10,704 nt of DNA from Campylobacterota bacterium (GTDB lineage: Bacteria > Campylobacterota > Campylobacteria > Campylobacterales > Sulfurovaceae). The DNA lies in contig QMKU01000022.1 in NCBI GenBank assembly GCA_003646525.1, positions 1 to 10,704 on the forward strand, in the 5' to 3' direction. Below the pieces are notes generated by a model that was not told where the DNA came from, ran no database searches, and saw only the letters and a list, made by a program, of their open reading frames with translations. The position numbers were made by a program, and so were the translations under genes. Below, in pieces: positions 1 to 10,704 of this stretch (positions are counted from its first letter, which is position 1; each line of letters begins with the position of its first letter).

Positions 1-990
1 ATCGTAAGCCTCTTGGGTATTGAGCACATTATCGTAGCGATCAACAAGATGGATTTGGTCGATTTCAGCGAAGAGATTTATAATGAAATTGCTCAAGCCT
101 ATGCTGAGCTTGCCAGTGAACTGGGTATTAAAAATACCTATTATATTCCAGTCTCTGCACTCGATGGTGACAATGTCGTCGATCAAAGTAAAAGCACCCC
201 TTGGTTCAAAGGAAAACCTCTACTAAGTCTGCTCGACAGTATGGATATCAGCAAAGAAGAGAAAGCGGAAGACTTTAGGCTTCCTATTCAGTATGTCAAT
301 CGTCCCAATCTTGACTTCAGAGGCTTCTGCGGTACGATCGCAGCAGGCTCAATCAAGGTAGGCGATGAGATTACGGTCTTGCCATCAGGCAAAACAACCA
401 AGGTCAAGAGCATTATCAATGCGGGTGACATCAATGAAAAGAACAGAGTAGCAACTAGCCAAGAAGCCTATGCACCTATGGCGATCACTATCACGACAGA
501 AGATGAAGTCGATATCTCTCGTGGTGATATGGTCGTTCATACGAAAAGCCTTCCTAGAGTTTCAAATAGCCTCAAAGTAATGCTGGTCTGGATGGATGAG
601 AAGCCGATGGAGATTGATCGAAGTTATGATATCAAAGGTGCGACATCTCTTGTATCTGGGCACTTTGATCATATTAATTACAAAGTTGATGTCAACACCT
701 ACAAGAGAGAGCAAGTACACAAATTAAATCTCAACGATATCGCCTCTTGCAAGATGGTACTCACACGCGCTATTGCAGCAGACGCTTACGAGACAAATCG
801 CCTGACAGGCAGTTTCATCGTAGTAGATCGCGTCACAAACAATACTGTGGGTGCTGGTATGATAGTGAGTGTCAGTCGTCGCGAAGAAGATGCAGTCAAA
901 TTGGCAGACAAGAAGTATACTGATGCAGAAAAAGCACTTAACCAATTTATTCGTACGAACTTCCCAGAGTGGGAGTGTAAAGTAGTATGA
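1..990 (+). CDS. cysN: Sulfate adenylyltransferase subunit 1 (CysN), 5' end cut by window
   Basis: GTPase subunit of ATP sulfurylase. With CysD it makes adenosine 5'-phosphosulfate (APS) from ATP and sulfate, driven by GTP hydrolysis, in the cytoplasm. The reading frame is open from base 1, so the TTG at 13 is internal and the real start lies upstream. The visible 329 residues open inside the GTPase domain, with the G4 motif NKMD at about visible residues 15-18 and a G5-like VSALDG near residue 54. The elongation-factor-like beta-barrel domain follows (YVNRPNLDFRGFCGTI near residue 98, then a second barrel to the C-terminus). CysN is usually about 470-480 residues, so roughly 140-150 residues carrying the P-loop and G2/G3 are missing. 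The stop at 988-990 precedes any APS kinase domain, so this is a stand-alone CysN and not a CysNC fusion. It leads directly into the two kinase genes downstream. Identity is secure; truncation is only by the window edge. Confidence 0.96.
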   Translation: MVSLLGIEHIIVAINKMDLVDFSEEIYNEIAQAYAELASELGIKNTYYIPVSALDGDNVVDQSKSTPWFKGKPLLSLLDSMDISKEEKAEDFRLPIQYVNRPNLDFRGFCGTIAAGSIKVGDEITVLPSGKTTKVKSIINAGDINEKNRVATSQEAYAPMAITITTEDEVDISRGDMVVHTKSLPRVSNSLKVMLVWMDEKPMEIDRSYDIKGATSLVSGHFDHINYKVDVNTYKREQVHKLNLNDIASCKMVLTRAIAADAYETNRLTGSFIVVDRVTNNTVGAGMIVSVSRREEDAVKLADKKYTDAEKALNQFIRTNFPEWECKVV

Positions 991-1004
991 TAATTCTGGT
1001 ATTT

Positions 1005-1008
1005 GAGG
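1005..1008 (+). promoter_or_regulatory. Shine-Dalgarno deciding the start of the DUF2061-kinase gene
   Basis: GAGG sits 9 bases before the ATG at 1018. A TTG at 1003 in the same frame would overlap this site and has no ribosome site of its own, so the ATG at 1018 is preferred. Confidence 0.55.
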
Positions 1009-1017
1009 AAAATTTGG

Positions 1018-1743
1018 ATGTATAGAGAGACCAATAAGCGTTCTATCGTCAAAGGTATTAGTTGGCGTGTTGTTGCGACGACTACGACGATTGTAATTGT
1101 CTATTTTTTCTTTGATAGATTAGATTTGGCTATTGCGGCAGGAGTGATAGAGACAGTTTTAAAAGTGGGACTCTATTGGCTACATGAGAGAACATGGTTC
1201 AAAGTACGATGGGGCAAAGAGCGAATCGAGCCCTTCAATCTATGGTTGACTGGATTACCTCTCTCTGGAAAAACAACTATTGCAGATAAGGTCTATACAG
1301 AACTGGAAAAACTAGATATTCCCCTTGAGCGAATTGACTCCAAAGATATTCGTGACCTCATCCCAGATATTGGCTACGGCAGAGAAGAGAGAAACCGTCA
1401 TATGCATCGAATTGGTAATCTCATTCGCACCCTACAAAACAACTCTATCTCTACAGTGGCATCCTTCGTCTCTCCCTATGGAGAATCCAGAAAAGCGATA
1501 CGAGAGATGGTCAAAAATAATATTGTTGTCTATGTAAAGGCCGATATTGAGACTTGCAAACAACGAGACTACAAAGGCAAGTATGCCCGAGCATTATCTG
1601 GTGAATTTCAAAACTTTCCTGGCATCAATGATGTTTATGAAGAGCCCAAACACGCTGAGATCACCATAGACACCGAGAATACTTCTGCTGATGATGCAGC
1701 GAAGATCATTGTAAAATATGTAAAGAGACATTATGTTAAATAA
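1018..1743 (+). CDS. DUF2061 membrane domain fused to divergent APS-kinase-like domain
   Basis: Two-part protein of 241 residues. Residues about 7-66 form a DUF2061 domain: a conserved GISWRVVATTTT start, two hydrophobic helices (about 16-32 and 37-55), and the hallmark HERTW at 56-60 followed by WG. The rest resembles CysC: P-loop GLPLSGKTT at 79-87, SPYGESR for the usual SPY/F segment, and RDYKGKYARALSGEFQNF for the lid segment. Key substrate-site positions differ from the canonical CysC next door. DGDNIR becomes DSKDIR (107-112), replacing the second Asp by Lys, and the Asn of DRxEN becomes His (REERNRHM, 122-129). The protein is probably anchored in the inner membrane with a cytoplasmic kinase domain. 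It may be an APS kinase variant, a kinase for another nucleotide, or a membrane docking partner for CysC. Its 3' end overlaps cysC by 11 bases. The domain call is firm; the activity is not known. Confidence 0.85.
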   Translation: MYRETNKRSIVKGISWRVVATTTTIVIVYFFFDRLDLAIAAGVIETVLKVGLYWLHERTWFKVRWGKERIEPFNLWLTGLPLSGKTTIADKVYTELEKLDIPLERIDSKDIRDLIPDIGYGREERNRHMHRIGNLIRTLQNNSISTVASFVSPYGESRKAIREMVKNNIVVYVKADIETCKQRDYKGKYARALSGEFQNFPGINDVYEEPKHAEITIDTENTSADDAAKIIVKYVKRHYVK

Positions 1744-2335
1744 AAATATAGTATGGCACGACCACTGTACCACAAAAGAAGAACGATCATCCATTAAAGA
1801 TCAAAAGCCATGTATTCTCTGGTTTACAGGACTTAGCGGTTCTGGCAAATCAACGATTGCCAATGCAGTTGAGAGTAGACTTCTTGAACTTGGCAAGCAT
1901 ACCTATCTTCTCGATGGTGACAATATCCGAATGGGACTCAATAGAGGTTTGAGTTTTTCAGATGAGGATCGCATAGAGAATATCAGACGCATTGGCGAAG
2001 TCTCCAAGCTCTTTGTCGATGCAGGGACGATCGTACTTACAGCGTTTATCTCGCCCTTTCAAAGAGAGAGAGATGCTGTGCGTGCTCTGGTAGGAGAAGG
2101 TGAATTTATCGAACTCTTTATCGACACGCCTCTAGCAGTCTGTGAAAGCCGAGACCCAAAAGGGCTGTATCAAAAAGCAAGAAAAGGTGAAATCCCAAAC
2201 TTTACAGGGATTAGCTCTCCTTATGAGTCTCCTAGGAAGCCTGAAATACATATTGTCAATGACAATATCACGATTGACGATATCACACAACAAATTATAG
2301 ACTATATGAAAGAAAAGGAGTATTTGCATGCTTGA
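1733..2335 (+). CDS. cysC: Adenylylsulfate kinase (CysC)
   Basis: Phosphorylates the 3'-hydroxyl of APS with ATP to give PAPS, the donor for sulfate reduction and for sulfotransferases. All family motifs are present in 200 residues, the usual length. These are the P-loop GLSGSGKST at 33-41, LDGDNIR at 60-66, SDEDRIENIRRIG at 76-88 (APS-contacting Arg and Asn), FISPF at 105-109, and the lid region RDPKGLYQKARKGEIPNFTG at 140-159. No membrane segment is present. The ATG at 1733 lies inside the end of the preceding kinase-like gene (11-base overlap) behind a weak AAAGAG at 1722-1727, suggesting translational coupling. It overlaps cysQ by 8 bases at its 3' end. In a pathway sense it sits between cysN (makes APS) and cysQ (clears PAP). 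The call is very secure; it is the intact, canonical member of the tandem kinase pair. Confidence 0.97.
   Translation: MLNKNIVWHDHCTTKEERSSIKDQKPCILWFTGLSGSGKSTIANAVESRLLELGKHTYLLDGDNIRMGLNRGLSFSDEDRIENIRRIGEVSKLFVDAGTIVLTAFISPFQRERDAVRALVGEGEFIELFIDTPLAVCESRDPKGLYQKARKGEIPNFTGISSPYESPRKPEIHIVNDNITIDDITQQIIDYMKEKEYLHA
2315..2320 (+). promoter_or_regulatory. Shine-Dalgarno of cysQ inside cysC
   Basis: AAGGAG lies 7 bases before the ATG at 2328, within the last codons of cysC. It fixes the cysQ start and supports translation of cysQ from the same message. Confidence 0.7.
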
Positions 2336-3107
2336 AAAAATAGATTTAGAAATCATTGTGACGATCGCCAAAGACGCTGGTGATGCCATTATGGAGATTT
2401 ATGACAAAGATTTTACCATAGAGTACAAAGATGATAAGTCACCCTTGACAGAGGCAGATACAAAATCAAATGAAATCATTTGTCAAGCACTAGAAAAAGC
2501 CTATCCAACCATTCCTTTGCTCTCAGAAGAGAACAAGGCAGAAGAGTATGGAGTGCGTAAAAACTGGGAGTACTTTTGGCTAATAGACCCCATAGACGGC
2601 ACCAAAGAGTTTATCAAAAAGAATGGCGAGTTTACTGTTAATATAGCCTTGATCCATAATGGGACACCCGTACTTGGAGTTGTGTATGCTCCAGCTTTAG
2701 CCGATATGTACAAGGCAAAAAAAGGCTCTGGTGCATTTAAAAATGGTCAAGAGTTGCCGTTAGAAGTGAATGAAATGCCCGAGAAATCCCTAAGGGTGGT
2801 TGCATCCAAGTCTCATCTCTCCAAAGAGACTCAATCTTTTATCGATGAAGTTGCAAAAGGTACAGAATATATCGAACAGGTATCGAAAGGCTCTTCTCTG
2901 AAACTTGTTATGGTAGCAGAGGGTATTGCCGATATCTATCCACGATTGGCTCCTACGATGGAGTGGGATACGGCTGCGGCAGATGCGATAGTCAGAGAAT
3001 CAGGCAAAATGTCTTACCAATATAATACAGAATCAAAAACAGAGAACGAAGAACCCTTAAAATACAACAAAGAAAACCTTCTTAACCCTTGGTTTATCGT
3101 CAAGTAA
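2328..3107 (+). CDS. cysQ: 3'(2'),5'-bisphosphate nucleotidase (CysQ)
   Basis: Inositol-monophosphatase-superfamily phosphatase that hydrolyses adenosine 3',5'-bisphosphate (PAP), the inhibitory product left when PAPS gives up its sulfate, to AMP. The 259-residue protein has normal family length. It shows the metal-binding signatures: a SEEN segment (about residues 66-69), DPIDGTKEFI (about 87-96) followed by GEFTVNIALI, and EWDTAAADAIV (about 212-222) for the second Asp motif. The start ATG at 2328 has a strong AAGGAG 7 bases upstream and overlaps cysC by 8 bases, so the two are coupled. CysQ in this position is typical of sulfate-activation operons and would serve either PAPS reductase or a sulfotransferase. 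A general inositol-phosphatase role is less likely given the neighbours. No oddities were seen. Confidence 0.95.
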   Translation: MLEKIDLEIIVTIAKDAGDAIMEIYDKDFTIEYKDDKSPLTEADTKSNEIICQALEKAYPTIPLLSEENKAEEYGVRKNWEYFWLIDPIDGTKEFIKKNGEFTVNIALIHNGTPVLGVVYAPALADMYKAKKGSGAFKNGQELPLEVNEMPEKSLRVVASKSHLSKETQSFIDEVAKGTEYIEQVSKGSSLKLVMVAEGIADIYPRLAPTMEWDTAAADAIVRESGKMSYQYNTESKTENEEPLKYNKENLLNPWFIVK

Positions 3108-3118: not shown

Positions 3119-3123
3119 ATTTG

Positions 3124-3939
3124 ATGATCGCAGCTATCACTCTCCTCTTTAAGCCCCTCCCTGAAGTCTACAGGAATATCAAAACATATCTGGATGAAGT
3201 AGACTGTCTTTACCTAGTGGACAATTCACCTGACACTTGCTCTTTTCCAGAGGGGCTACTAGAAGAAGAAAAGGTTAAACTTTTGTCTTCTGGTACCAAC
3301 ATGGGAGTTGCAGAAGCCTATAATCTTGGATTGCAAAACGCACAAAAAGATGGTTATCGCTGGCTGATGACAATGGATCAGGATAGTTTTTTTGAATCTA
3401 GACAAAGAGAGCATTTTTTTGAAGATTTTTCAAAAGCTTCTAAAAATAATCTTGGCATTTATGCTCCCCTACACAACCCAAAGTTTCTCTCACAACAGGG
3501 TGATGAGCCTGTTTCTGTTGTCATGAGTTCCGCTAGTATTGTCAATGTGGATATGGCACTCAAGTTAGGTAGTTTTGATAGTGCACTGTTTATTGATGAG
3601 GTAGATCATGAGTTTTGCCTGAGAATACAGCAAAATGGTTTTATCGTATTGCAAAACAAATCTGTTTACCTCAACCACTCCCTAGGCGAAGAGGTCAGAA
3701 AAGGGGTCAAAAAATACTCTTCGACACGACTTTACTACATGACGAGAAATCACTTCTACATCAAAAATAGATATCAGTATCTCTATCTGGCTTACTTCAG
3801 AAAACGGATATCATATATGCGAAAATTTCTCTTTTGGCAACTCTTTAATCACGGGCATAAATTACATCGTATTATGATGATACTCCTAGGCATAAAGGAT
3901 TACTATCTCAGCAGGATGGGCAAGAGGTATGAGTTTTGA
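3124..3939 (+). CDS. GT2 glycosyltransferase, rhamnosyltransferase-like
   Basis: Family 2 (GT-A fold) glycosyltransferase of 271 residues. It is expected to add a sugar from a nucleotide-sugar donor to a growing surface polysaccharide at the inner face of the inner membrane. The N-terminal nucleotide-binding fold shows LVDNSPD (about 31-37), then NMGVAEAYNLGL (about 59-70) and the metal-binding MDQDS (84-88). Further on, FIDEVDHEFCLRIQQNGF (156-173) and LNHSLGEE resemble the acceptor/catalytic part of RfbF/RfbN-type rhamnosyltransferases. The C-terminus is basic and rich in aromatic residues, suggesting peripheral membrane contact. Rhamnose as donor is only a similarity-based guess; the GT2 call is firm. 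The stop overlaps the next gene's ATG (TGATG), so the two glycosyltransferases are co-translated. It begins 16 bases after cysQ, with no terminator or promoter visible between. Confidence 0.88.
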   Translation: MIAAITLLFKPLPEVYRNIKTYLDEVDCLYLVDNSPDTCSFPEGLLEEEKVKLLSSGTNMGVAEAYNLGLQNAQKDGYRWLMTMDQDSFFESRQREHFFEDFSKASKNNLGIYAPLHNPKFLSQQGDEPVSVVMSSASIVNVDMALKLGSFDSALFIDEVDHEFCLRIQQNGFIVLQNKSVYLNHSLGEEVRKGVKKYSSTRLYYMTRNHFYIKNRYQYLYLAYFRKRISYMRKFLFWQLFNHGHKLHRIMMILLGIKDYYLSRMGKRYEF

Positions 3940-4886
3940 TGAGCAGTGAACCGCTTGTTACGATCATTATGGCAACCTACAATGGGGAAACTTTTATAGA
4001 AGAACAACTGCAATCAATCATAGAGCAAGACTGTGGAAACAAAGAGTTATTGATTGCGGATGATAATTCTGACGATAACACCTATAGTATATTGGCACGA
4101 TATGCCAGAGAATATGAGTGGATTCATCCCCGCCAAAACAAGAAGCGTCTAGGTTTGATTGGTAATTTTGAAGCATTATTAGAGAGAGCCCAAGGAGACT
4201 ATATCTCCTTTTGTGATCAGGATGATATTTGGGAAAGAGAGAAGCTATCTAAATCAGTAAAGAGACTAGAGGAAGAGGATAACAGACAGGCTCTACTCTT
4301 TCACAGTGACTTAATAGTAGTGGATAAGAGTCTTGAAACTATTGCTCTATCATTTTTCAAAATGAGATCTTATACATTCAAAAAGCAACAGCAGGTTGAC
4401 GCAATGTTGGGTCGATGTGGCGTGATGGGAAATACGATGATGATCAATCAAAAACTAAAATCACTGGTGTTACCTTTTCCAGATGACCTAAAGGTGCATG
4501 ACTACTGGATTGCCCTGATCAATGAACTTTATGGCAAGCGTCTAACATCGTATGAACCTCTCGTTAGATATCGGTTGCATCAGACGAATACCTCCAATAC
4601 GCTTGAGAGTATCAGAGGTCAAGGCAACAGCAGGATTTATATCCCAAGAGATAAAATAAAACTCCCCTACCTTAATATCAATAGAGAGAAAAACTTGAAA
4701 ACTTTATTGTTACGATACCATCTGGACGAAAAAGAAAAGAGAGTAATTTTAGACTTTATCGATTATCTGGAATTCAAAAAGAGTCGGCTCTATTTAGTCA
4801 TCCTAATATTTAGATATGATTTCTTGAGAGACAATCTTCTCTATAGATTTAAGACAGCCCTAAAAATTTTATGGAAAAAAAGATGA
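3939..4886 (+). CDS. GT2 glycosyltransferase, WcaA-like
   Basis: Second family 2 glycosyltransferase, 315 residues. It begins with the classic VTIIMATYNGETFIEEQL motif (about 7-24), then ADDNSDDNT (about 40-48), NFEALL, and the donor/metal site FCDQDDIW (91-98). HDYW at 187-190 and YRLHQTNTSNT (about 211-221) fit the acceptor-side motifs of polysaccharide GT2 enzymes. A basic C-terminal region ends in Lys/Arg. The ATG at 3939 uses the last base of the preceding stop (TGATG); an in-frame TTG at 3936 is a weaker alternative. Its own stop overlaps the kpsC start (ATGA). The position just before kpsC argues for a role in repeat-unit or linker assembly of a capsule-like polysaccharide. Donor and linkage cannot be read from the sequence. 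Confidence 0.9.
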   Translation: MSSEPLVTIIMATYNGETFIEEQLQSIIEQDCGNKELLIADDNSDDNTYSILARYAREYEWIHPRQNKKRLGLIGNFEALLERAQGDYISFCDQDDIWEREKLSKSVKRLEEEDNRQALLFHSDLIVVDKSLETIALSFFKMRSYTFKKQQQVDAMLGRCGVMGNTMMINQKLKSLVLPFPDDLKVHDYWIALINELYGKRLTSYEPLVRYRLHQTNTSNTLESIRGQGNSRIYIPRDKIKLPYLNINREKNLKTLLLRYHLDEKEKRVILDFIDYLEFKKSRLYLVILIFRYDFLRDNLLYRFKTALKILWKKR

Positions 4887-6931
4887 GAGTTGCAAAGAAG
4901 CTAACTGACTCTTTTTATTGGAAAAATACTCTTTCCATATTGCGTCAAAAAAATACTCCTCTTCAGGGCTGGGGAAGAAAAAGAACGGGTCGTTTTGCGG
5001 TACAGTGTGCCAAATTACTTCAAAAAGATTTTATTTTGCTTGAAGATGGTTTTGTGCGATCTATAGGACTAGGTGTAGACAACGCTCCCTCATTCTCTAT
5101 TGTTAAAGATGACATCGGCATTTATTATGATGCGACGATGCCTTCTAGGCTTGAGGAAATTCTCAACCATTATGATTTTGAGAATGACATAGTATTGATG
5201 CAGCAATCACAGACAGCAATAGCGTTGATAGAGAAATATCACATATCCAAGTATAATAGCGCCCCTGATGTAGATAGCAAACTAACGACCAAATATGCGC
5301 TAGACAAAAAAAGGGATAGGGTACTGGTTATTGCTCAGACAGCAGATGACGCTTCATTGAAGTATGGATTGGCAACGCAGTTTGATACCAACACAATCAT
5401 CCAAGATGCACGAGAGCAGAATCCTGATGCCGATATTTATCTGAAAATTCATCCAGATGTACTCAGTGGTAAAAAAAGTTCCGATACTGATATTCGGAGG
5501 ATAGATAGTGATTGCCGTATTATTGATGATGATATCAACCCTCTTTCACTCTTGAAGTATTTTGGCAAAGTCTATACAAAAACATCACAGATGGGTTTTG
5601 AGGCACTCCTGCTAAACAAGGAGTGTGTCTGCTATGGTATGCCTTTCTATGCAGGCTGGGGCGTGACGGAGGATAGAATCACTTGCGATCGTCGCACAAG
5701 AAGCCTGAGCACAGAAGAGATCTTCGCTGCTTCCTATATCCTCTACACTGACTACCACAATCCCTACAGCCAAAAATCATCAAATATCATCGATACTATA
5801 CAGACCATTGAAAAATATAGAAACCGCGACAGGATGATTAATCAAAAGGCATATTTTTTTGGCTTTTCAAGATGGAAGCACTCATTTATCAAAGCTTTTG
5901 TCACAAATATAACTTCTGTAAACTTCATCAATCCACTTTTATCACAAACAGCTCTTGACCTAGCAATCAAAAAAGGTTTGGACAAAAAGAGTCGGATTTA
6001 TATTTGGGGCAAGAGAGAGCTTGCAGATATAGAGCAGTATGCCAGAGAAAATCAGATCAGCATCTATAGGGTAGAAGATGGGTTTATTCGATCAGTCAGT
6101 CTAGGTTCCGATCTCACACGACCATACTCTCTAGCTATAGATAGGCGAGGCATCTACTTCGACCCTGCCCAAGAGAGTGATCTGGAACATATTTTAAATT
6201 TTCACCCCTTTAGCTCTGATGAACTAAATCGTGCTAAACAGATCAAAGATCAAATTATCAAAGAGAAATTATCAAAATATAATAATTATGAGAATATTTC
6301 ACTACAGGTCCCCGATCATCAAAAAATCTTACTAGTTCCTGGTCAAGTAGAAGATGATGCTTCTATTAGATATGGTGCAGTAGGGATGAGTAACTTAAAA
6401 CTTCTACAGCAGACAAGAGCCAAAGCCCCACAAGCCTATATTATCTACAAGCCACATCCTGATGTACTAGCAGGGAACAAAATTGGAAAAATAGAAGATG
6501 AAGTGGCATTGAACTATTGTGATCGTATTGTGACTGAGGTTAGCCTCGATAGCATCCTTTCACTAAGTGACGAAGTCCATACGATGACCTCTCTGGTCGG
6601 ATTTGAAGCAATTATGAGAGGCATCAAAGTCTACACCTATGGTCTTCCCTTTTATGCTGGCTGGGGACTCAGTGTCGACCTCTATCGATGTGAACGCAGA
6701 AAAAGAAAATTGAGTATAGAGGAACTAACTGCGGGAACTCTCTTACTCTATCCGCACTATATCGATCCATTGAGCAGAAGACCATGTAATACAGAAGTAA
6801 CACTCAGAGGGTTAAAATTTGAACGAGAGAAATTGAAGTCATCCACCTTGTATCGAAAAAGCTTACAATGGCGTAATTTCATAAGCCGAAAGTTACAGTG
6901 GCTATTGAGGCTTGTTTTTAGAGGATTTTGA
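4883..6931 (+). CDS. kpsC: Capsule beta-Kdo transferase KpsC (two-module)
   Basis: Builds the poly-Kdo linker on the lipid anchor of ABC-transporter-dependent capsules, at the cytoplasmic face of the inner membrane. The 682-residue protein contains two related glycosyltransferase modules. Repeated landmarks are EDGFVRSIGLG (about 54) and EDGFIRSVSLG (about 400); QTADDAS (about 152) and QVEDDAS (about 487); HPDVLSG (about 190) and HPDVLAG (about 524); TSQMGFEA and TSLVGFEA; and PFYAGWG (about 254) and PFYAGWG (about 589). In characterised KpsC proteins the two modules add Kdo in alternating linkages. Both modules here look intact, which fits a full-length enzyme. The start was set at the ATG at 4883, which overlaps the previous stop (ATGA) with GGAA six bases upstream; an ATG at 4871 in frame would add four residues. 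The end overlaps a putative promoter for kpsM. No kpsS, the partner that adds the first Kdo, is visible in this window. Confidence 0.95.
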   Translation: MRVAKKLTDSFYWKNTLSILRQKNTPLQGWGRKRTGRFAVQCAKLLQKDFILLEDGFVRSIGLGVDNAPSFSIVKDDIGIYYDATMPSRLEEILNHYDFENDIVLMQQSQTAIALIEKYHISKYNSAPDVDSKLTTKYALDKKRDRVLVIAQTADDASLKYGLATQFDTNTIIQDAREQNPDADIYLKIHPDVLSGKKSSDTDIRRIDSDCRIIDDDINPLSLLKYFGKVYTKTSQMGFEALLLNKECVCYGMPFYAGWGVTEDRITCDRRTRSLSTEEIFAASYILYTDYHNPYSQKSSNIIDTIQTIEKYRNRDRMINQKAYFFGFSRWKHSFIKAFVTNITSVNFINPLLSQTALDLAIKKGLDKKSRIYIWGKRELADIEQYARENQISIYRVEDGFIRSVSLGSDLTRPYSLAIDRRGIYFDPAQESDLEHILNFHPFSSDELNRAKQIKDQIIKEKLSKYNNYENISLQVPDHQKILLVPGQVEDDASIRYGAVGMSNLKLLQQTRAKAPQAYIIYKPHPDVLAGNKIGKIEDEVALNYCDRIVTEVSLDSILSLSDEVHTMTSLVGFEAIMRGIKVYTYGLPFYAGWGLSVDLYRCERRKRKLSIEELTAGTLLLYPHYIDPLSRRPCNTEVTLRGLKFEREKLKSSTLYRKSLQWRNFISRKLQWLLRLVFRGF

Positions 6932-6967: not shown

Positions 6968-7747
6968 TTGCATCAAAGAAATTATATGTTTGTCTTCTTC
7001 TCTGTTCAAAAGGCTCTATTCCTAAGAGAGATGAATTCAAAGTTTAGCACAAGCAGATTGGGTGTTTTTTGGACATTTTTTCAGCCATTTATGCAAGTCG
7101 TCGCTTTCGTTCTTATTAAAATGTTCATTTTTGGAAGAGGAGATGAACACTTTGACTATGCTGTCTTCCTCGCACTAAACTTCACCGCATTCAATATGTT
7201 TAACGGAATCCTAGGCAAATCCATTGGCGCATTTAAAGCTAACAAGGCACTTTTCAACTATAAGCAGGTTAAGCCTATTGATGCGATCATAGCTGGGAGC
7301 CTAGTAGAAATCTTCATGACAGGCATTGTTTATAGCATGTTCCTCTTTGTCGGATACTATTTTGACTTTGGTATGGAGGGAAAAAATATATTGATGGTAG
7401 GCATTGGACTTGTCTGGCTCATCGTCTTCTCTTTCTCCTTCGCTCTTGTAGTTGCCATAGGAGATACATTCTACAAGAGTATCGGAAAGATAGTAAAGAT
7501 ATTCACCTTTGGGTTGATGATCTTTTCTGCTGTCTTTTATCCAGTGGCAAGCATCCCTCCTGAGGGTCAAGCTATACTGCTTTATAATCCACTGGTTCAT
7601 TTTATGGAAATCATTCATGGTTCATATTTTCATGCACTTGATACCAGATATGTAGATTATACCTACATAGCTATCTGGACGATCACTCTGCTCTATATAG
7701 GGATGTGGCTCTATCAACGACTTGAAAAGAAGATTATTTCGGGATGA
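6968..7747 (+). CDS. kpsM: Capsule ABC transporter permease KpsM
   Basis: Membrane subunit of the exporter that moves lipid-linked capsular polysaccharide across the inner membrane with KpsT. The 259 residues match KpsM length and ABC-2 topology: an N-terminal cytoplasmic amphipathic stretch (FLREMNSKFSTSRLGVFW, about 18-35, a hallmark of the family), then about six hydrophobic segments near 36-55, 64-80, 105-130, 140-165, 173-195 and 230-250. FYPVASIPPEGQ and YNPLVHFMEIIHGSYF near 191-222 are the conserved C-terminal family motifs. It starts at TTG 6968, chosen for its strong AAGGGGAG at ideal spacing, and the rare start codon may moderate its level. The stop overlaps the kpsT ATG (ATGA at 7744-7747), so the two subunits are translationally coupled. 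Identity is secure. Confidence 0.95.
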   Translation: MHQRNYMFVFFSVQKALFLREMNSKFSTSRLGVFWTFFQPFMQVVAFVLIKMFIFGRGDEHFDYAVFLALNFTAFNMFNGILGKSIGAFKANKALFNYKQVKPIDAIIAGSLVEIFMTGIVYSMFLFVGYYFDFGMEGKNILMVGIGLVWLIVFSFSFALVVAIGDTFYKSIGKIVKIFTFGLMIFSAVFYPVASIPPEGQAILLYNPLVHFMEIIHGSYFHALDTRYVDYTYIAIWTITLLYIGMWLYQRLEKKIISG

Positions 7748-7797
7748 TTGAGCTTCGCAATGTCACAAAGTACTTCCGAACCGAAGAGGGGCGAAAA

Positions 7798-7800
7798 TAG
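7798..7800 (+). other. In-frame amber codon inside kpsT
   Basis: TAG directly follows GRK and precedes ILKD in the frame set by the kpsM-overlapping ATG. From memory of the family, this position is often Tyr in KpsT (GRHYVF-type segment), which would need only TAT/TAC to TAG. No homopolymer run adjoins it, apart from AAAA at 7794-7797. Confidence 0.9.
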
Positions 7801-7818
7801 ATTCTTAAAGATGTCACA

Positions 7819-8412
7819 ATGACTCTTCCCGATGGTAATATTGGGATCCTAGGGAGAAATGGTATGGGCAAAACAACACTCATTCGGATGCTCGGAAGGA
7901 TAGAATTTCCCCAAAAAGGCAGAATAGCCTCAGCGCAGACCTTCTCATGGCCTCTCTCCCTCTCTGCAGGTTTTATAGCGACGATGAACGGCAGAAGCAA
8001 TGTCAAATTTGTTTGCCGGCTTTATGGAAAGAGTGACAAAGAAACAGAAGATATCATAGAGTTTGTCAAAGATTTTGCTGAACTTGGCGACTACTATACG
8101 ATGCCTATCAATACTTACTCATCTGGAATGAGAGCAAGACTCAATTTCGGTCTTAGCCTTGCCTTTGATTTTGACTATCTCCTTATCGACGAGACACTCT
8201 CTGTAGGTGATGCCAGCTTCCGAAACAAAGCCAAAGAGATGTTACAAAAGAAGATAGAGCAGAGCCAGATACTGCTTGTAAGTCATGATATGAAAACACT
8301 TAAGGATTTGTGCCACATAGGACTTCTTGTCCATGAGGGAGAACTCCACTATTTTGATCACATTGACGATGCTGTCAAGGCATATGAAGAGATCAACAAA
8401 AAGGCTAAGTAA
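7819..8412 (+). CDS. kpsT: Possible N-terminally shortened KpsT made by restart
   Basis: If ribosomes restart after the amber codon, the first in-frame ATG is at 7819, 18 bases past the stop, giving 197 residues. No convincing ribosome site precedes it (only AAAGATG-like bases), so it would rely on reinitiation by terminating ribosomes. The product keeps Walker A (12-20), signature (100-111), Walker B (119-125) and the switch His (156), but lacks the first strands and the A-loop aromatic. ATP binding and folding would therefore probably be impaired. Listed as the alternative reading of the interrupted gene, not as an independent gene. Confidence 0.45.
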   Translation: MTLPDGNIGILGRNGMGKTTLIRMLGRIEFPQKGRIASAQTFSWPLSLSAGFIATMNGRSNVKFVCRLYGKSDKETEDIIEFVKDFAELGDYYTMPINTYSSGMRARLNFGLSLAFDFDYLLIDETLSVGDASFRNKAKEMLQKKIEQSQILLVSHDMKTLKDLCHIGLLVHEGELHYFDHIDDAVKAYEEINKKAK

Positions 8413-9512
8413 TGACAAGAATCATTCTAAAAACAGTACTAACACTGCTTTTTGCTGCAACAGCAATCTATATTTTTCGCTATGAAACAGAGCGATATGA
8501 GTCTCAGTCCGTTGTTTCACTCAAAGATCTCTCAAGAAAACAAGCCATGGACTCCATCGGATCAATCATAACAGGACCCTCTGGTGATTCTCAGGGCTCT
8601 AGGCTCTTGGAGCTCTATATCAAATCGCATGAAATGTATGATTATTTAGAGTACAAATTTCACCTAAGCGAATACTATACTAGCGAAACGATCGATGAAC
8701 TCCACCGACTCTACAAGGATTCAAAGCTAAAGCATTTTGATGCAAACAAAGAAAATTTTCTCATAAAATACAATGAAGATTTAAGTATTCTCTATGACGA
8801 GCCTACTAGTACGCTGGCAATCAATTTTGCCCATGCGGATCTAAATACTTCAAAGGTCATACTTCAGGCGATCATTGACCGTTCGGCTGATGTTGTCAAC
8901 CAGTTTGAAAAAGAAAATGCCAAGGTAGCTCTAAAGTTTATCGAAAAGCAGAGCAATGAAAACAAAGCTATCTATATCGCATCCATCAAAGAGATGCTAA
9001 AATACCAAAATAAGCACCTTACCATTGATCCCAATATAGATGTCCAAACCCAAAGTACTATCATTGCAAATCTAGAGAGTGAACTTATGCAAAAAGAGGT
9101 TGAGTACAACAGTAAATCTAAGTTCTTCAATAAAAATACCTATGAGATGAGAATACTCAAAGATACTATGATAAACATTGAAAAAAATATCATTAAAGTC
9201 AAACATAAGATGACAGGCAAAAGCACTGAAAAAAGAGAGCTCAATGAGAATGTATTTGATTTCGAGCTGATCAAGAGCGACATGGAGTTCAACAAAGAGA
9301 TCTATCGTCAAGCACTTATCAATCAAGAAGAGCTCAAAATAGAAGTAAGTCAAAATGCAAAAAACCTGCTCACCATATCTACACCTATTGTATCAGAGTA
9401 TTACACTTATCCAGCAAAATATCAAGATACGCTGACTGTACTTCTTATTATATTTTTCTTTTATGGTATCGTGACGACTATACTCACTATACTTCAAGAT
9501 CACAAGGACTAG
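8412..9512 (+). CDS. kpsE: Capsule export inner-membrane adaptor KpsE
   Basis: Polysaccharide co-polymerase type 3 (KpsE/CtrB/Wzz-like) protein that spans the periplasm and links the KpsMT exporter to the outer-membrane channel. The 366 residues show the expected plan: one N-terminal membrane helix (about 5-21), a large periplasmic part that is mostly helical and likely coiled coil (about 165-325, with heptad-like Glu/Lys-rich segments), and a second membrane helix near the C-terminus (about 339-361, LTVLLIIFFFYGIVTTILTI) ending in QDHKD. YIKSHEMYDYLEYKFHLSEYY (about 69-89) is a recognisable family segment. The N-terminal cytoplasmic tail is only about four residues, shorter than in the E. 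coli protein. The ATG shares a base with the kpsT stop (TAATG), so it is the third gene of the export operon. The outer-membrane partner KpsD is not in the window. Confidence 0.88.
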   Translation: MTRIILKTVLTLLFAATAIYIFRYETERYESQSVVSLKDLSRKQAMDSIGSIITGPSGDSQGSRLLELYIKSHEMYDYLEYKFHLSEYYTSETIDELHRLYKDSKLKHFDANKENFLIKYNEDLSILYDEPTSTLAINFAHADLNTSKVILQAIIDRSADVVNQFEKENAKVALKFIEKQSNENKAIYIASIKEMLKYQNKHLTIDPNIDVQTQSTIIANLESELMQKEVEYNSKSKFFNKNTYEMRILKDTMINIEKNIIKVKHKMTGKSTEKRELNENVFDFELIKSDMEFNKEIYRQALINQEELKIEVSQNAKNLLTISTPIVSEYYTYPAKYQDTLTVLLIIFFFYGIVTTILTILQDHKD

Positions 9513-9523
9513 GTTCTCTTCTA

Positions 9524-10704
9524 ATGATAAAAATTATTTTAATAGTAGTATTGATGACTACTATTACCTTGGCAACAGAGTCTGATCAATGTATACACTT
9601 ACTTAACCGTACCTCATTTGGAGTGGATCAGCAGGGTCTCTCGTCCTGCCTGAAAGACAAGACCTATGAGGTGACCGTATCGAGGCTACTTTCTCTATCT
9701 GCCATGGAAACAGAAGAGGAGCTACTCCCTTTCGCGAAAAAGATTATCAAACCCAACAAAAAACACAAAGATCTCAACGCCGAAGAGAGAGAGGCTTTTA
9801 GAGAGAATCGAAGAAGAGAGAAATCAGCCATAAAAAAGTGGTGGATGCACAAGCTTATTGAGACAAATGCTCCATTCGAAGAGAAGATGGTTCTTTTTTG
9901 GCACAACCACTTCACAAGTAGTCTCAAAAAGGTACCACAGATCGCACTGATGTATAGACAAAATCAACTCTTTCGGAGGTATGCCCTAGGAAACTTTGCA
10001 AAAATGCTTCATTCCATTGTCGAAGATCCTGCTATGCTTATCTATCTCGATAATCGTGCCAATAGGAAAAAACGCCCCAATGAAAACTTCGCACGCGAAC
10101 TTCTTGAACTCTTTACCTTGGGAGAGGGTCACTATAGCGAACAGGATATCAAAGAGCTTGCTCGTGCACTTACAGGCTATAGCATAGATAAGCATATGAG
10201 TTTTCGCTTCAAAAAAAAGCTTCATGATTCGGGCGAAAAATCAATTTTTGGTCATAGGGGAGACTTCAACGCCCATCAGGCAGTCGATATTATTCTTGAG
10301 CAAAATGCCACAGCCGAATTCATTGTTGGAAAGCTATGGAAAGCCTTTGTCAGCGAAGAGTCGGATGATATGGAGATAAAGAGATTGGCTCAATACTTCA
10401 GAGATCAAAAGTATGAGCTCAAGCCAATTATAAATGCTATTTTGACCTCCAAAGCTTTCATGGAACTCTCCAATAGAGGCACCCTGATCAAATCCCCTAT
10501 AGAGTTGATCGTCGGAACTTTACGCACATTCAATACTACTGCTTTTGATCTGAAAATCGCTCTTCAGTACAGTAGAAGACTCGGACAGGATCTTCTCAAT
10601 CCCCCCAATGTCAAAGGCTGGTCTGGTGGCAAACAATGGATCAATGCCAACACCCTACTAATCCGAAAAGAGTTTATCAGCAGGTTGACACGAGCCAAAG
10701 GAAA
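9524..10704 (+). CDS. DUF1800 family secreted protein, 3' end cut by window
   Basis: Open to the window edge with 393 codons visible. The N-terminus MIKIILIVVLMTTITLATES is a good Sec signal peptide with likely cleavage after Ala17 (TLA-TE), so the protein is exported. DUF1800 hallmarks follow in order: LLNRTSFG (26-33), WWMHKLIE and KMVLFWHNHFTSS (106-133), RPNENFARELLELFTLGEG (184-202), DIKELARALTGYS (208-220), FGHRGDFNAHQAVDIIL (242-258), and NPPNVKGWSGGKQWINANTL (359-378). A Lys/Arg/Glu-rich insert at about 71-103 is compositionally distinct. DUF1800 proteins have no firmly established activity and are often encoded beside a DUF1501 protein, which would be expected just downstream. The start lies 11 bases after kpsE without a strong ribosome site. 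Whether it belongs to the capsule operon or merely abuts it cannot be told. The family call is secure. Confidence 0.9.
   Translation, partial: MIKIILIVVLMTTITLATESDQCIHLLNRTSFGVDQQGLSSCLKDKTYEVTVSRLLSLSAMETEEELLPFAKKIIKPNKKHKDLNAEEREAFRENRRREKSAIKKWWMHKLIETNAPFEEKMVLFWHNHFTSSLKKVPQIALMYRQNQLFRRYALGNFAKMLHSIVEDPAMLIYLDNRANRKKRPNENFARELLELFTLGEGHYSEQDIKELARALTGYSIDKHMSFRFKKKLHDSGEKSIFGHRGDFNAHQAVDIILEQNATAEFIVGKLWKAFVSEESDDMEIKRLAQYFRDQKYELKPIINAILTSKAFMELSNRGTLIKSPIELIVGTLRTFNTTAFDLKIALQYSRRLGQDLLNPPNVKGWSGGKQWINANTLLIRKEFISRLTRAKG

Follow-up and report, generated by a model that had tools for sequence, protein, structure and literature searches.

A single in-frame amber codon interrupts the capsule export gene kpsT in a metagenome bin of a Sulfurovum-like bacterium

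The window, by which we mean the whole stretch of DNA analysed, is an entire contig (C22) of 10,704 bases, taken from a metagenome bin of 2,079,481 bases in 429 contigs with completeness and contamination values of 74.34 and 4.36. Its genes lie on the + strand in the order cysN, a DUF2061-APS-kinase fusion, APS kinase, cysQ, two glycosyltransferase genes, kpsC, kpsM, kpsT, kpsE, and a DUF1800 gene; the contig ends truncate cysN at the start and the DUF1800 gene at the end. The capsule genes are laid out as follows (P0002 is an intact homologue of the kpsT product and P0241 the protein corresponding to kpsC).

3121-3939 and 3936-4886, + strand: two glycosyltransferase family 2 genes, from profile matches
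4871-6931, + strand: kpsC, 686 aa, uninterrupted, with two PF05159 (Capsule_synth) stretches; P0241
6968-7747, + strand: kpsM, capsule ABC transporter membrane subunit, TTG start, 259 aa; PF01061 above cut-off, NF050053 below cut-off
7744-7797, + strand: 5′ piece of kpsT, 18 codons, identical to residues 1-18 of P0002
7798-7800, + strand: amber codon TAG, in frame, kpsT codon 19, read from the sequence
7801-8412, + strand: remainder of kpsT, open to TAA, with a PF00005 match; ATG 7819, the first downstream, opens a 197-aa frame
8412-9512, + strand: kpsE, 366 aa, uninterrupted, ending with TAG at 9510-9512; TIGR01010 below cut-off, no Pfam match

The kpsT frame opens at ATG 7744-7746, which overlaps the kpsM stop codon (ATGA), meets the TAG at codon 19, and then stays open, without a shift of register, up to a TAA whose last base is 8412. 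The 18 and 203 residues that flank the TAG match P0002 at 221 of its 222 residues, so the frame is not a chance ORF. The DNA is kpsT, yet as written it encodes no full KpsT. We aligned 36 sequences chosen from 120 listed homologues (the best of 839), with P0002 as the first row; the invariant columns include G37, N39, G40, G42, K43, T45, Y125, S126, G128, M129, D149, E150, and H181, which we take to be the ATP-binding and hydrolysis motifs. All of these are kept in the window, and column 19, the stop, is the only invariant column at which the conserved residue is missing. The preliminary description, made from the letters of the window, had reported a kpsT broken by a single TAG with both pieces in one frame, intact ATPase motifs 3′ of the stop, and undamaged genes around it. 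On each of these points we concur: the coordinates agree with the match to P0002, every invariant column except 19 is retained, and KpsC, KpsM, and KpsE are all uninterrupted. Capsule phase variation in Campylobacter works through repeat slippage. In contrast, the longest single-base runs in the window kpsT are of five A, at 7913 and 8398, and neither is at the stop, where there is no simple repeat; slippage-type phase variation at this site was rejected for these reasons.

The name KpsT rests on two observations: P0002 residues 1-221 match the solved chain 8tsi_A (234 bits; 8tsh also matched), and the gene is flanked by kpsM and kpsE and has kpsC close by. The likeness to the KpsT of these structures (PMC11041684) extends from this match to the motifs, the kpsM-kpsT-kpsE neighborhood, and a shared glutamate, which reads Q in the 8tsh chain; the difference is that the window copy alone has a stop at codon 19. 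When the 197-aa fragment was compared with NCBIfam, none of the 25 families listed out of 130 matched scored over its cut-off (the best, NF050108, reached 122 bits vs. a cut-off of 400), and no model named KpsT was among those 25.

A protein search with the same fragment found 839 homologues; the figures given here come from the best 120. The broken form, which is the window's own fragment (P0001, 10704-base contig), is listed on one contig only, although these per-protein counts are not exhaustive. P0002 is unbroken on a contig of 11161 bases and agrees with the window at 221/221 other residues, reading an amino acid where the window has TAG. P0003, a second unbroken protein (223 aa, on two contigs, the longest 20549 bases), is 98% identical over the query; it departs from the window in four more residues and has one extra residue at the end. 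All 366 aa of KpsE agree with P0121, for which a single contig is listed, also of 11161 bases (the window contig encodes P0121 as well, yet is not counted there), and we infer that P0121 and P0002 share that contig. P0241 (KpsC) is listed on the 10704-base contig, in a cluster of six members. The N terminus of KpsT is present in 117 of these best 120 proteins; it is missing from P0001 and from two short proteins, probably cut by contig ends, whose contigs measure 1695 and 1299 bases. Where the window has its stop, 116 proteins have Tyr, one has His, and three do not cover the site; across the 36 chosen sequences the column is invariant. The part of kpsT that follows the stop shows no decay, being equal to the intact copy, P0002, and an older pseudogene is therefore unproven.

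The DNA of related loci gives the same picture. The comparison covers 59 relative loci (L007-L037 and L042-L069), 45 of them distinct by their last 190 residues; L038, which holds the last 49 residues only, and L039-L041, which are 27-28% identical, were omitted before the count. Most of the close relatives are bins labeled Sulfurovum, Campylobacteraceae, or Campylobacterota. Among the 45 distinct loci, 44 carry a sense codon at the stop column and none carries TAG, with L036 falling short of the column; the encoded residue is Tyr in 40 and Phe, Trp, Val, and Thr in one each. The preliminary description had looked to the kpsT of close relatives for the ancestral codon: the stop is shared by 0/44 covering distinct loci and by neither P0002 nor P0003. 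Stops were flagged in eight loci (L053, L054, L057, L059, L061, L062, L068, and L069), all outside genes whose frames of 224-247 aa are uninterrupted, and these are taken as terminal stops. Suspected breaks in two genomes (G167 and G127) were likewise set aside, there being no stop within kpsT residues 1-219. As far as these sequence searches reach, the stop is private to the window sequence, and it would be recent if real.

We also surveyed 175 genomes of the family, in 39 of which kpsT is matched at E values up to 1e-60; all 39 were inspected. The gene is uninterrupted in 36 and broken in three: the window genome (G000), G134, and G087. The G134 copy (L051 and L124, contig C10) has an in-frame TAG at codon 69, and the G087 copy (contig C91; L121, the same as L034, 3378-3411) is frameshifted next to eight consecutive A, the mark of either phase variation by slippage or a mistake in assembly. 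Other ABC genes of G134 are broken as well: a split gene on C6, presumably lptB, which is an essential gene, and a split ABC exporter on C25. These splits suggest errors in the G134 assembly, and its kpsT TAG is probably another. Stops inside PF00005 matches number two out of 26 in G134, plus one gene split over two frames; the counts are 0/26 in the window's own genome (where the kpsT match begins after its stop), 0/30 in G007, 0/39 in G063, and 1/28 in G009, the last in a weak match below the cut-off.

Across the same 175 genomes, the count of stops is zero both inside the 42 matches to kpsM (E values of 1e-20 or lower) and inside the 41 to kpsE (1e-40 or lower); these zeros are reported stop counts, with short matches looked into, and unlike the kpsT count they do not cover frameshifts. 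The short kpsE in G161 and the short kpsM in G124, considered as lesions, are due to contig ends. Compared with 0 of 83, the 3 of 39 broken kpsT genes give P = 0.03 with the window included (Fisher's test), 2 of 39 give P = 0.10, and 1 of 39 gives P = 0.32. The lowest of these values counts the window, which was picked for being broken. Breakage of kpsT in the sampled Sulfurovaceae is not an established pattern, and no switch is shown. In one genome of the same genus (G009; L088 and L118, contigs C90 and C466) the assembly appears to break inside kpsT; it has no whole copy, the kpsE contig (C90) holding the last 49 residues and kpsM standing at the end of another contig.

TAG terminates kpsE in the same operon (9510-9512) and ends the kpsT genes of several relatives (L019, L020, L045, L046, L049, and L067), and the bin encodes RF1, the release factor for TAG (512.5 bits vs. 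a cut-off of 423.25). A change of genetic code was rejected, given the presence of RF1 and the TAG that ends kpsE. A complete tRNA set is larger than 11 genes; in this bin, which is only 74% complete, 11 distinct tRNA genes are found (ARAGORN; 12 RF00005 matches), none with a CUA anticodon. The ATG at 7819 lies 18 bases past the stop, with a weak purine stretch upstream. Met occupies this column in just 29/120 homologues (the best 120 of 839), so the start looks incidental, and a conserved restart was rejected. Restarting there drops the first 25 residues and with them the strand predicted at residues 2-12 and most of that at 18-28, at pLDDT 52-62; the structure model concerned is that of P0002, of moderate confidence at best, with a mean pLDDT of 70.8 and residues 1-30 at 52-62 (the other four models have 41.5-48.9). 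The preliminary description had also proposed a search for a second kpsT; none that might rescue the function was found in the 74%-complete bin. The next-best matches (C84 and C269) are 37% and 36% identical, and their frames, of 430 and 348 aa, exceed KpsT in length; a further three, weaker matches in the same bin are 24-29% identical.

That the stop is sporadic, counting mutation and error jointly, is in our judgment very probable. By a modest degree we favor a recent, real nonsense mutation, a private single-base change in this uncultured Sulfurovum-like bacterium, in the strain sampled; the match of P0002 at 221/221 residues, on a contig of 11161 bases vs. 10704 for the window, supports such a change. 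An error in the assembly consensus, in which case the living cells would carry an unbroken kpsT, is a prospect to be taken seriously, if one we put below even chances. It draws on the unbroken and otherwise identical P0002 being listed elsewhere, with the broken P0001 on one listed contig only, and on the fragmentation of the bin (429 contigs, 74% complete); other bins of the family hold error-like broken genes, as in G134 with its C25 exporter, its C6 gene, and its kpsT with TAG. P0002 may even share its sample with the window, and an error or a mixed population would then be favored. However, a high rate of local errors is not apparent: stops are absent from all 26 PF00005 matches of the window's own genome, KpsE is identical to P0121, and no other window gene looks interrupted. 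The preliminary description had offered recent mutation, assembly error, and a suppressible stop acting as an off-switch; the first two of these hold nearly all of the probability.

The third finds no support. A functional stop would give regulated or low levels of KpsT through low read-through, tRNA suppression, or restart at ATG 7819. The early site of the stop, the intact frame beyond it, and the ATG with its purine stretch 18 bases on are consistent with such a role, and the few tRNA genes in the bin leave room for a suppressor. Against this, the stop is absent from P0002, P0003, and all 44 covering distinct loci; TAG is an ordinary stop here, ending kpsE, and RF1 is encoded; none of the 11 tRNA genes has a CUA anticodon; and the restart residue is Met in 29/120 of the best of 839 homologues, with a restart forfeiting strands predicted by the model at low local confidence. 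We regard a functional stop as very unlikely. Equally improbable, in our view, is that the allele is a selected capsule-off variant and that kpsT is repeatedly inactivated in Sulfurovaceae, which the excess of broken kpsT genes (3/39, vs. 0/42 for kpsM and 0/41 for kpsE; Fisher's P = 0.03) might suggest. The window, however, was chosen as broken, and 2 of 39 give P = 0.10 and 1 of 39 gives P = 0.32; moreover, further ABC genes are broken in G134, the G087 break adjoins eight consecutive A, a context also prone to errors, and the kpsM and kpsE zeros count reported stops. Capsule-on and capsule-off alleles of kpsT might nonetheless coexist in the family, under phage pressure on the one hand and a need for the capsule on the other, with kpsT rather than kpsM or kpsE repeatedly hit; we allow this a small chance, because it may overlap with a real mutation in the window.

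If the stop is a real mutation, RF1 would end translation after 18 residues, leaving an 18-residue peptide unless the codon is suppressed, and a restart at ATG 7819 would yield a product lacking the two opening strands of the ATPase fold. Capsule export by KpsMTE would probably be lost in cells with the TAG allele, which would have no surface capsule and would hold unexported polymer inside. With a catalytically inactive KpsT, surface polymer is no longer detected in a laboratory system, according to PMC11041684, and loss of KpsT should therefore stop export. Reports on export mutants describe intracellular buildup of polymer in Escherichia coli group 2 mutants (PMC2408645), growth in vitro like the parent for a kpsT in-frame deletion in another species (PMC4264864), and kpsM disruptants of Campylobacter jejuni that serve as working strains (PMC5126078). 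As these mutants are viable, a lone kpsT lesion appears tolerable and not paradoxical, and the argument of the preliminary description that failure of export alone is usually harmful is a weak one.

Premature stops in capsule loci are already known, and the window stop is of an ordinary kind. The E. coli catalogue includes 22 capsule loci set apart from a parent locus solely by premature stops, which arise from SNPs or short indels (PMC13171606); the window resembles them in equaling an intact parent save for a premature stop, whereas they concern serotype-specific ORFs of E. coli and the window a gene for export in a metagenome bin. The phase-variable features of the Campylobacter capsule (PMC5808241) are alike in that a surface feature is lost within a population. 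Among titles and abstract openings on kpsT nonsense mutations or premature stop codons, none concerns a kpsT stop in Sulfurovum or related bacteria. A single stop in a metagenome bin may be an error, and little hangs on the kpsT stop alone; it is a minor hint that Sulfurovum-like bacteria may lose capsule export through mutation. It also carries a caution, since the database gene call P0001, a plausible 197-aa ATPase, conceals the lesion.

As to the rest of the window, no kpsD was recognized in it, the sole Poly_export match of the genome being on C203, and an Rfam search of the window gave no RNA element at the gathering score. The DUF1800 gene (9524-10704) comes after kpsE. Directly upstream of the capsule genes, at 1-3107, lie cysN, the DUF2061-APS kinase fusion, the second APS kinase, and cysQ, a sulfate-activation set that could be the sulfate source for a sulfated polysaccharide.
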